Positions 20,859-59,442 of a stretch of DNA of 64,000 nt are shown here, one piece after another; position 1 is the stretch's first letter; every line of letters starts with the position of its first letter. Origin of the DNA: an uncultured Akkermansia sp. (lineage in GTDB: Bacteria; Verrucomicrobiota; Verrucomicrobiia; Verrucomicrobiales; Akkermansiaceae). The DNA lies in assembly GCA_947588645.1 (NCBI GenBank), contig CANPYO010000001.1, positions 23,571 through 87,570 of the forward strand. Direction: 5' to 3'. The position numbers and the translations under genes were made by a program. Below the pieces are notes generated by a model. That model did not search any database. It was not told the DNA's origin and saw only the letters and a list, made by a program, of their open reading frames with translations.

Positions 20859-20943
20859 TATGTACGATGTACGAGGTACGATTTGGAAAGTTCGCGCGCC
20901 TGCGGCGCGGGCGTATCCAAATCGTATCGTAAATCGTAAATCA
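20859..20943. repeat. Heptamer-array inverted element (TACGATG/TACGAGG/TACGATT … AATCGTA)
   Basis: tatgTACGATGTACGAGGTACGATTTGGAaag…tatCCAAATCGTATCGTAAATCGTAAATC; arms are inverted repeats of each other. Confidence 0.85.
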
Positions 20944-23750: not shown

Positions 23751-23923
23751 TTACGATTTAGAATTTCCCGCACTTGCGCGCGAATTTCTCAAATCGTACA
23801 TCGTACGTCGTACATCGTACATGGGCGACGCTAGTCGCCACCGCCCACGCCTTCCGCTTACGCTTCGCATTCCCCGCGCCTTCGGCGCGCTGTAATCCAA
23901 ATCGTAAATCGTAAATCGTAAAT
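23751..23923. repeat. Heptamer-array intergenic element between convergent acnA and the bat operon
   Basis: TTTACGATTTAGAATTTCCCGC…CTCAAATCGTACATCGTACGTCGTACATCGTACATG … GCGCCTTCGGCGCGCTGTAATCCAAATCGTAAATCGTAAATCGTAAATG. Confidence 0.85.
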
Positions 23924-31940: not shown

Positions 31941-31982
31941 GCTGCATCTTGCAGTCTGACACAATTTGACAGGTCTTACCAC

Positions 31983-32229
31983 GGCAAACGCATTGGAAAT
32001 ACGTTTGCCTATGTACGAGGTACGATTTTCGATGTACGATTTGCAAATAATGCGGAGCGTAAGCGAAGGTGGCGGATAAAACAAGGTTCGGGCATGGTTA
32101 CAAAGGGACGGGAAGCGAAGCGGTCGATTTCTAACCAACTCCGCGTGTCGCTTTCGAAACACGCGCTTCGCTACCCCCGCGAGCCGGAGGCGAGCCACTC
32201 TTCTAAATCGTAAATCGTAAATCGTAAAT
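31983..32229. repeat. Composite element: hairpin GGCAAACGCATTGGAAATACGTTTGCC + heptamer arrays, inverted heptamer array at far end
   Basis: ggcaaacgcattggaaatacgtttgcctatgTACGAGGTACGATTTTCGATGTACGATTTG … AAATCGTAAATCGTAAATCGTAAATG. Confidence 0.85.
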
Positions 32230-32237
32230 GACTTGTC

Positions 32238-33005
32238 TTACAGACTGAGGCGGTCGGTAATGACGTCGGTGATGGGGCGGTTTTGGATTTTCTCGCTCAG
32301 GATGCCGTCACCGAGTATGTCGGGCGAGCAATAGCGGATAAGCTTGCCGAGCCGCTCAGCCCAACTGCGCAGGTTCACATCGGCATTGCCCGTTCTTTTG
32401 TAAGCATCCGCAGAGATGAGTCGAGCTGCCTTGCGATTGCTATCCTTGCAGGCGAACAGAAGTTGTCCGGTTTTGACGTCACGGATGGTGAGTTCAATGC
32501 ATATATCGCCTTCGGCAAATTTACCGACCACGCCGGTGACGCCGGGAACTTTGATAAAATTGCCGCTGATTTTGGAGAGAATGCGCAGGACAGGATACTG
32601 GGGGCGAAAGTGAACGAGCGCCATATCGACGCGAATATCGGCCGTAGTTGGGTCATCCGTCAAAGTCCAATTGTGCTTGTTGGCCTCGTTCCCTTCCCTC
32701 AAAGCTTTGCCAAGGGATTCCACCATGTAATGCTGCATCTGGGGAACCATAAGGGGCGCTAATTCCGGTTCATCCTTCTCAACTTTGGAAATATCCAGCG
32801 GCGCAATGTAAATGGAGCCTTCCTTCTGGTTGAGATAGGGATTGCCGCGACCCCAAGACCAGGCGCCGTTGAGGGAGATTTTTATGGAACGGCGCAACTG
32901 CACGTCGTACAGACCACTCTCGGAGGTGAGGGTATGTTGCTGCGCACAGGAGACACACAGCAGAGAAGCCAGGATAAGCAGAACAACGTATCGAACACTG
33001 GTCAT
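32238..33005 (-). CDS. Putative lipoprotein (DUF3313-like)
   Basis: Lipobox …LASLLCVSCAQQ; single domain with SIKISLNGAWSWGRGN…ADIRVDMALVHFRP; family call from general resemblance only. Confidence 0.65.
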   Translation of the reverse strand: MTSVRYVVLLILASLLCVSCAQQHTLTSESGLYDVQLRRSIKISLNGAWSWGRGNPYLNQKEGSIYIAPLDISKVEKDEPELAPLMVPQMQHYMVESLGKALREGNEANKHNWTLTDDPTTADIRVDMALVHFRPQYPVLRILSKISGNFIKVPGVTGVVGKFAEGDICIELTIRDVKTGQLLFACKDSNRKAARLISADAYKRTGNADVNLRSWAERLGKLIRYCSPDILGDGILSEKIQNRPITDVITDRLSL

Positions 33006-33011
33006 GAGCCA

Positions 33012-33040
33012 ATCATATCACAATCTGAGCCGTGTTGCAA
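33012..33040 (-). promoter_or_regulatory. Promoter of lipoprotein gene, 6 nt from ATG
   Basis: Minus strand TTGCAA-N17-TATGAT-N6-ATG. Confidence 0.65.
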
Positions 33041-33061
33041 TACCACCAAGGAAAACGCCAG

Positions 33062-33290
33062 GGCAAACGCATTAGAAAATGCGTTTGCCTATGTACGATT
33101 TACGATTTACGATTTGTTAATAATGTGCGCGTTGCGCAGATTTTTTCGGATCATTAATGTATGCTGAGATCCCTTTAGAGCCATCATCATAATGACTGCT
33201 TCTTGTCACGATTTTTGATACGTATAAACGTTGATATCAGCCAATAAGAGTATTTCCTCTGTCGATTAACTTCTCTCAAATGCGTTTGCC
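33062..33290. repeat. Full-length ~229 bp element (copy R1): terminal hairpin, three heptamers, ~185 bp core, right terminal repeat AAATGCGTTTGCC
   Basis: Near-identical to 39639-39852 (about 7 substitutions over the ~185 bp core by eye). Confidence 0.92.
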
Positions 33291-33337
33291 TATGTACGAT
33301 GTACGATTTGGAAAATTCCCGTGCTTGCGCGCGAATT
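33291..33337. repeat. Heptamers plus AATTCCCGTGCTTGCGCGCGAATTTT hairpin module, ending at the uvrA-paralog stop codon
   Basis: tatgTACGATGTACGATTTGGAAAATTCCCGTGCTTGCGCGCGAATTTT; cognates at 23760-23790 and 49621-49655. Confidence 0.8.
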
Positions 33338-39617: not shown

Positions 39618-39638
39618 GTGAAGACTACATCCGCGCAG

Positions 39639-39852
39639 GGCAAACGCATTAGAAAATGCGTTTGCTATGTACGATTTATTAATAATGTGCGCGTTGCGCA
39701 GGTTTTTTCGGATCATTAATGTATGCCGAGATCCCTTTAGAGCCATCATCATAATGACCTCTTCTTGTCACGATTTTTGATACATATAAACATTGATATC
39801 AGCCAATAAGAGTATTTCCTCTGTCGATTAACTTCTCTTAAATGCGTTTGCC
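39639..39852. repeat. Full-length element (copy R2), ~214 bp, with one heptamer where copy R1 has three
   Basis: GGCAAACGCATTAGAAAATGCGTTTGC…TTCTCTTAAATGCGTTTGCC. Confidence 0.92.
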
Positions 39853-39865
39853 GTGTACGAAGCAC

Positions 39866-41980: not shown

Positions 41981-42278
41981 AAATACGATGTGCGATGTAC
42001 GATTTGAATGCGAGATTGCCGAGCCGGTGCATAGCGGAACTCTTGAAATGATGATGCGTTGACAGGAGGAAAGTCTCCTGTGTGAGACTATGTCGGGTTG
42101 ACTCGTAGGCACCCCATTGCCTATTGCTTCGGAGTCGCCTCACGACTCCTCACCCCTGCGGGGCAAAAGCTATCGCTTTTGGCTAATCGACCTCACGGCC
42201 GTCGGTCACTTTCGCCTCCCCGCGCCTCCGGCGCGCTATAATCCAAATCGTACATCGTACATCGAACATCGTAAATGA
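41981..42278. repeat. Long heptamer-array inverted element
   Basis: TACGATGTGCGATGTACGATTTG … GCGCCTCCGGCGCGCTATAATCCAAATCGTACATCGTACATCGAACATCGTAAATG. Confidence 0.83.
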
Positions 42279-47543: not shown

Positions 47544-47821
47544 GCCTTTAGCGTGTACTAATCTACTCTTCTCTCTCATTCGAGGCGATGTGAACCGAGA
47601 TGAAAGTTGAAGAAATCTCTTTTATCGCTCCGATAAAAAATGCATCACGATACGCGTAATATACAGACATTCAATAAGAAATAGGATGTATCCATCGCGA
47701 ACGAAGCCCCTGTCAGATACCAGTTTTTTATCTGAGGGAGCGGAGCGGTAATTATGTTGCCTACGCACAAAAAACTGACATAAGCCGGAAATATGAAGCT
47801 CCCATGTCCTGGAATACCCAC

Positions 47822-49429: not shown

Positions 49430-49788
49430 AAAAAACGATCCAAATACGCAATTCATTTATGATTTATGATTTACGGTTTGAAAAGTGAGCGCCGGAGGCG
49501 CGAGCTAGCGAAGCAGATGCGGACGAGATATGATGAAGCCGTGATCGGGGGTGGTCAGAAGGAGACGGTGGCGCCTGGCGGCGCCCGGTGGCAGCTAGAC
49601 GATACTATGTACGGCGTACGATTTGAGAAATTCCCGCGCTCGCGTGAATTTGGCGAATGAGAGGGGAAGTCTTTAGTGCTATCATCATGATGACCGCTTG
49701 TTGTCGTGATTTTTGGTACCTATAAATGATGATATCAGTCAATAAGAGCCTTCTTTCTGCTGATTAACTTCTCTCAGATACGTTTGCT
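49430..49788. repeat. Composite degraded element: heptamers, AATTCCCGCGCTCGCGTGAATTT hairpin and diverged ~125 bp core (copy R3)
   Basis: ATTTATGATTTATGATTTACGGTTTG…TACGGCGTACGATTTGAGAAATTCCCGCGC…; core shares GATATCAGTCAATAAGAG…GATTAACTTCTCTCAGATACGTTTGC with R1/R2. Confidence 0.78.
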
Positions 49789-52297: not shown

Positions 52298-52367
52298 GGC
52301 AAATGCATTTTCTAGTTACACTTGTCCAGCATGACCTACTCGGTTACTTCTCTCAAATGCGTTTGCC
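52298..52367. repeat. Minimal 70-bp element with terminal inverted repeats GGCAAATGCATTT / AAATGCGTTTGCC
   Basis: GGCAAATGCATTTTCTAGTTACAC…TTACTTCTCTCAAATGCGTTTGCC. Confidence 0.8.
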
Positions 52368-55065: not shown

Positions 55066-55114
55066 AATAAAACGATTTTTTTGAAAAAAGCAGATCTTCG
55101 GGAAGATCGAGCAG

Positions 55115-55317
55115 GGCAAACGCATTAGAAAATTCGTTTGCCTATGTACGAGGTACGATTTGCAAAGTTCGCTCGCGTTGCGCGGAGGAAGATGAACAGC
55201 GCGAAGCGCTGCCCGGAGGTCGAAAACTGCCGACGGCGTAAGGCAGTTTAGCCAAAAGCATAGCCTTTGCCCCGCAGGGGCGAAAACTCGTGGGGCGACT
55301 GTGAGTCATCGTAAATA
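55115..55317. repeat. Composite element: hairpin GGCAAACGCATTAGAAAATTCGTTTGCC + heptamers TACGAGGTACGATTTG + GC-rich filler
   Basis: Same module order as 31983-32229; ends …CATCGTAAATAATC. Confidence 0.8.
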
Positions 55318-59356: not shown

Positions 59357-59429
59357 AGCGCATTTCGTATTCGGAAATAGGCACGAGATCAACTGTTTGG
59401 AGAGTTTTCTCTGCTTTCCCACTTCATCC

Positions 59430-59442
59430 AAATACGTTTGCC
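59430..59442. repeat. Isolated right-terminal repeat of the GGCAAACGCATTT family
   Basis: AAATACGTTTGCC followed by GTGG as in other right ends. Confidence 0.5.

Follow-up and report, generated by a model that had tools for sequence, protein, structure and literature searches.

What kind of element is the intergenic repeat that recurs through this region, and what decides where its copies lie? The window, a 64,000-nucleotide stretch, comes from a 2.49-Mb metagenome-assembled Akkermansia genome (G000), and a preliminary description had recognized in it a family of modular, MITE-like repeats. The family is real: its copies in the window were recovered, and blastn found at least 41 near-full copies in the host genome, at 84-100% identity. 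This count is a lower bound; 40 candidates were scored. The unit spans 33059-33290 (+ strand; CAGGGCAAACGCATT...AATGCGTTTGCC) and, with the additional CTG that a typical right end carries, measures 235 bp; in this first copy, which consists of CAG plus 229 bp, TAT and a heptamer stretch stand where the right CTG would be. The true boundary, CAG...CTG, lies 3 bp further out at the ends than had been described, and the interval originally drawn to 33337 extends beyond the unit into flanking DNA and another stretch of heptamers. Inverted terminal repeats are present at both ends, as had been described. The left one, CAGGGCAAACGCATT (33059-33073, +), is identical to the ends of ISAs1-family ISs (L071, L072, L136 and L141), and the right one, AATGCGTTTGCC, lies at 33279-33290 (+). 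The terminal repeat occurs a third time, internally, and so makes the left end a 28-bp hairpin (GGCAAACGCATT-AGAA-AATGCGTTTGCC, 33062-33089, +), with a heptamer array, (TACGATT)n, next to it (33094-33113, +). The conserved core (33111-33278, +), delimited in an alignment of 52 copies, holds no open reading frame, and the MITE no plausible gene.

The other copies in the window were compared with a reference comprising 33059-33293. The second full copy lies between two divergent promoters at 39636-39855 (+); over 39636-39852 it is 90.5% identical to the reference, with exactly 7 substitutions, where about 7 had been counted at 39639-39852, and a 14-bp deletion in the heptamers. The degraded copy reported at 49664-49788 is a decayed right half (49671-49787, +; 82% identity), and the 70-bp minimal form at 52298-52367 (+) is an internal-deletion derivative whose right end (52346-52367) is identical to the reference over 22 bp. 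Hairpins with heptamers and no core occur at 31980-32052 and 55112-55161 (both +), and there is a further hairpin-only relative at 47819. The right end at 59430-59442 had been wrongly assigned to the family: it has the terminal repeat alone in common with it and belongs to a different element (59431-59442, +), whose inner sequence, CCACTTCATCC..., differs. A second small family, with the terminal repeat of the MITE and the inner sequence TGGATGAAGTGG...GAGAAAACTCTCC, was seen at 59380-59442 in the window, at L059:1570 and in the right flank of L016.

All MITE copies are intergenic (0/43 genic), at a coding density of 86%, and a search for copies on plasmids or phages found none. In the host genome the hairpin is about four times commoner than full copies, with 103 + 72 matches to the left-end 31-mer at three or fewer mismatches (about 175) and none to a reversed-pattern control. 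The hairpin occurs in 13 of the 76 Akkermansia genomes compared and is absent from 63; the relatives that carry it are Akkermansia sp. from the rabbit gut. Some copies are older than the split of the species represented by G000, G083 and G087, because one insertion is common to all three with the same target duplication.

Such target duplications (TSDs) are 10-bp direct repeats directly outside CAG...CTG; when both flanks were compared, no other length showed repeats. A match of at least 8/10 was present in 20 of 55 full-size end pairs, versus 0.19 expected from flanks shuffled among all the pairs tested. Empty sites were first sought at five loci, some of which held shared or other elements; a second set of loci yielded two clean ones. 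Allowing for divergence, the target AGTCATAACG is present in single copy in two congeners (G020 and G016) and the target CATTGTGGCA in five (G083, G087, G086, G020 and G016).

A partner with matching ends was found in congeners. L071 is an intact IS of 1315 bp encoding a 383-aa transposase with the domains DDE_Tnp_1_assoc and DDE_Tnp_1 (PF13808 and PF01609; 80.9 bits each, above the cut-offs). Its ends, CAGGGCAAACGCATT and AATGCGTTTGCCCTG, are identical to the MITE ends over 15 bp, and its left end has 22 bp in common with that of the MITE. This parent IS agrees with the ISAs1 family (1.2-1.5 kb, CAGGG-type ends, TSDs of 8-10 bp) in its length, its ends and its 10-bp TSD; copies with 10-bp TSDs include L138 (AACCAAGGGG), L141 (GTGACTGTAT) and L148 (CTCTGCTATC). 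The same 14-bp end also delimits ISAs1 ISs of a less closely related family in the phylum (L171), and the ends of L196 and L199, which are annotated ISAs1 ISs, are CAGGGCAATCGCAT. At 85% identity or more, the transposase occurs in 7 of the 76 genomes, all 7 of them hairpin-positive, and in none of the 63 hairpin-negative ones. No ISAs1-type transposase was found in the host assembly, which is fragmented, so that the absence is weakly supported. Given the defined ends, the 10-bp TSDs, the empty sites and the autonomous IS with identical ends, the sequences well support the view that the repeat is a genuine transposon derivative, a MITE with an ISAs1-family parent IS, as its MITE-like appearance had suggested.

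The main point that the preliminary description missed is a fixed 18-bp spacing to -35 boxes. Sigma70-type promoters (TTG...TATAAT) were called by consensus alone, and the register was taken as the start of the -35 hexamer counted outward from the terminal CTG, a register of 19 being an 18-bp gap. After removal of similar flanks, a strict outward promoter was present at 95 of 267 element ends, and in 42 of these 95 the -35 box starts exactly at 19. As a control, these flanks were reverse-complemented, which yielded 20 promoters, with a maximum of 2 per position. By class, register 19 accounts for 23/45 of the MITE and hairpin ends of G000 (binomial p ~1e-30) and 11/22 of the IS ends (p 3e-15), compared with 4/476 for random intergenic points and 0 for the ends of heptamers and other dispersed repeats; ends of the second MITE family were left out of this comparison as contaminated by MITE-A ends. 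Among 35 independent, TSD-bearing insertions of MITE and IS, a good promoter stands at register 19 in 19, whereas the remaining registers have at most 3 each, and 14-16 have none.

The promoter at register 19 can be faced by either element end, in either orientation. Both full copies in the window obey the 18-bp rule through their left ends, with TTGCAA and TTGCCA at 19. The former is the -35 box of a promoter at 33012-33040 (- strand; TTGCAA, 17 nt, TATGAT with preceding TG; -35 19 nt from the left MITE end) that serves a leftward gene for a 255-aa DUF3313 protein (32238-33005, -). At one promoter, G000, G083 and G087 each carry an element at the same spot, plus or minus one base, and its orientation in G083 is opposite to that in G087, indicating independent insertions. 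ISs with divergent transposases are also in register, namely L141 (48% identical) and L169, which comes from another family. Roughly one in two promoter-bearing ends is off register 19. A minor second register has the -35 box at 10-12, about 8 bp closer, as at the right end of the second window copy (TTGACA at 11 from 39855), a copy without a TSD; this cluster may reflect deletion after insertion or a second mode of insertion. Among 13 regions with ISAs1 plasmid insertions from other phyla, 7 have a TSD, and 0/7 have a complete promoter in register. The plasmid-borne ISPa60 in L199 has TATAAT at 42-47; further ISPa60 insertions were left out because they seemed to come largely from a single, recurring plasmid context.

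With the -35 box at 19-24 and the -10 box at 42-47, the element end falls at about -54, and the 10-bp duplication extends from there to about -45, a stretch that the alpha C-terminal domains of RNA polymerase touch. Recognition of the polymerase-promoter complex would therefore be the simplest mechanism. Very probably, then, to judge from sequence comparison, the MITE is mobilized in trans by ISAs1-family DDE transposases that choose promoter targets. In the scheme that we propose, the transposases of 1.3-kb ISs with the same 15-bp ends would pick a target by recognizing a sigma70 promoter, which would most likely be occupied by RNA polymerase holoenzyme. The element would be joined at about -54, so that the duplicated 10 bp reach to about -45 and one side retains the promoter whole. 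Such an intergenic, harmless niche would account for the high copy number, and the source of transposase may have been lost from the host genome or be unassembled in it. We also consider it likely that promoter targeting by DDE transposases evolved independently in a second class, the ISAs1 enzymes, or at least the ones from Akkermansia and some other Verrucomicrobiota. These would read either the sigma70 promoter or the RNA polymerase on it and insert with single-base precision at about -54, with the MITE as a passenger that marks many promoters.

The core also contains a terminator-like stem-loop, TGTGCGCGTTGCGCA, followed by GATTTTTT (33124-33146, +), and the suggestion that the element carries transcript-ending signals was right to the extent that a 5-bp stem (TGCGC-GTT-GCGCA) and T6 are present. 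In the alignment, 96.5% of cells are paired, but the 52 sequences show one compensatory change, and the covariation score was reached by 15/500 shuffles, so that covariation does not exceed what relatedness among the sequences could produce. The consensus fold is weak, and no Rfam family was matched. Incoming gene transcription arrives at the left end in 13/42 copies and at the right end in 13/42, and this equality leaves nothing to suggest selection as a terminator. With one compensatory change, a weak fold, neutral orientation and no Rfam family, the case for a terminator or structured-RNA function is weak.

Two other accounts of the spacing were weighed against target choice. Copies might have inserted at random and been kept just outside promoters by purifying selection, and selection against gene disruption surely contributes to the location of 43/43 copies between genes. 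Selection is not expected, however, to produce a single-base peak such as that at register 19 (19/35 sites with a TSD, against none at 14-16). Random intergenic points and other repeats in the same genome give a flat profile. The IS copies share the register, and parallel insertions at one promoter agree within one base; we therefore regard random insertion followed by selection as very unlikely. It is somewhat less improbable, though still unlikely, that the hairpin or core has been domesticated as a promoter enhancer, insulator or terminator, with the spacing serving as functional phasing. Its constancy beside promoters, the stem and T6 at 33124-33146 and the retention of the core in several species would all accord with such a role. 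Yet the promoter is faced by either end, in either orientation, and by IS ends as well, the peak is not repeated at other helical phases, RNA covariation was not seen, and the orientation is neutral toward incoming transcription.

The abundance of hairpins, about four times that of full copies, together with widespread heptamers and tandem and mosaic copies, would also be expected of palindromic REP/BIME-type or STRR repeats spread by replication slippage or recombination, with no transposon involved. REP and BIME are small palindromes without target duplication, whereas full copies of the Akkermansia MITE have TSDs; these 10-bp TSDs, the empty sites and the IS with identical ends contradict such an origin for the full element and make it most improbable, although spread of this type is possible for the core-less hairpins. 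The MITE is most readily viewed as a selfish passenger that leaves genes intact through its choice of target, and it may affect adjacent promoters.

Promoter targeting is documented for TnGBS and ISLre2, which insert 15-17 bp upstream of sigmaA -35 boxes, and ISs of the ISKra4 group show a similar preference (Guerillot et al. 2014, PMC3942029); that paper cites a proposed contact with RNA polymerase and does not mention ISAs1. We found no report of promoter targeting by ISAs1 in the open-licence papers searched, which is not proof of its absence. TnGBS and ISLre2 (p-MULT3) and the ISKra4 group (p-MULT4) resemble the Akkermansia elements in their fixed distance upstream of the -35 box, but their transposases belong to the Mutator superfamily, whereas the Akkermansia enzyme is of the ISAs1 DDE type, with DDE_Tnp_1-type domains only. 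The Akkermansia elements are further distinguished by the 18-bp gap, the 10-bp TSD and the ability of either end to lie toward the promoter. Few bacterial transposases are known to target promoters, and the documented ones that we found are of the Mutator superfamily; a second family with the same targeting, if true, would permit a comparative test of how transposases locate RNA polymerase. The elements also serve as natural promoter markers in uncultured gut bacteria, and their uniform insertion upstream of many Akkermansia genes may influence regulation.

ISAs1 ISs such as ISPa60 share PF13808 and PF01609, ends beginning CAGGGCAA and a 10-bp TSD with the Akkermansia IS; the MITE differs from them in having no transposase. 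Like bacterial MITEs such as MITEAba12 (PMC6382973), it is short and gene-less, with terminal inverted repeats, a TSD and high copy number, and it appears from its sequence to be mobilized in trans. Its parent IS, the left-end hairpin derived from a third terminal repeat and the heptamer array inside it set it apart from other bacterial MITEs. Correia and RUP elements are further examples of bacterial MITEs.

The heptamers had been taken for a module of the MITE, but they form a repeat family of their own. Of 76 congeners, 33 have arrays, among them genomes that lack the MITE hairpin, and arrays also follow other hairpins. STRR of cyanobacteria are intergenic tandem heptanucleotide repeats; the Akkermansia heptamers are likewise intergenic and tandem, but lie both within the MITE and beyond it, and no mover is known for them. 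Outside the MITE, the window has arrays at 20863-20938, 23790-23920, 32207-32226 and 42247-42259, followed by TTTGGAAANTTCGCGCGC...GCGCGGG-like sequence, and many of the genome's arrays come after other hairpins that end in GCC-TATG. In G019, inverted pairs of arrays, about 125-170 bp apart, surround GC-rich stem-loops (C36:19488-19676, and also on C41, C54, C68, C107, C115 and C122), an arrangement that resembles the two ends of a further intergenic element.

Core-less hairpins mostly lack a TSD and fit the promoter rule poorly (2/10 in register versus 11/18 for hairpins with core), so they look like products of decay or recombination. At the site corresponding to 33059, G083 and G087 carry a core-less hairpin instead of the MITE, which suggests, at the level of sequence, an exchange of modules.

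Three further features were noted in passing. The dispersed repeat ACACGTGTCCCAATAAAATTTTCTCCGGGCTCATTCAACCC is frequent between genes genome-wide (for example at L048:9085 and in the L026 flank). A repeat of at least 70 bp that starts with CAGGGCAAGGTGGATTGCAAG is present in very high copy and at many contig ends (L004:1750-1830; G088, G086 and G087), and probably represents one end of an IS that is abundant and assembles poorly. At 36-20840 of the window, an open frame of 6934 aa (+) overlaps a long series of - strand open frames; it may be a giant gene rich in repeats, or else lie antisense to genuine genes.
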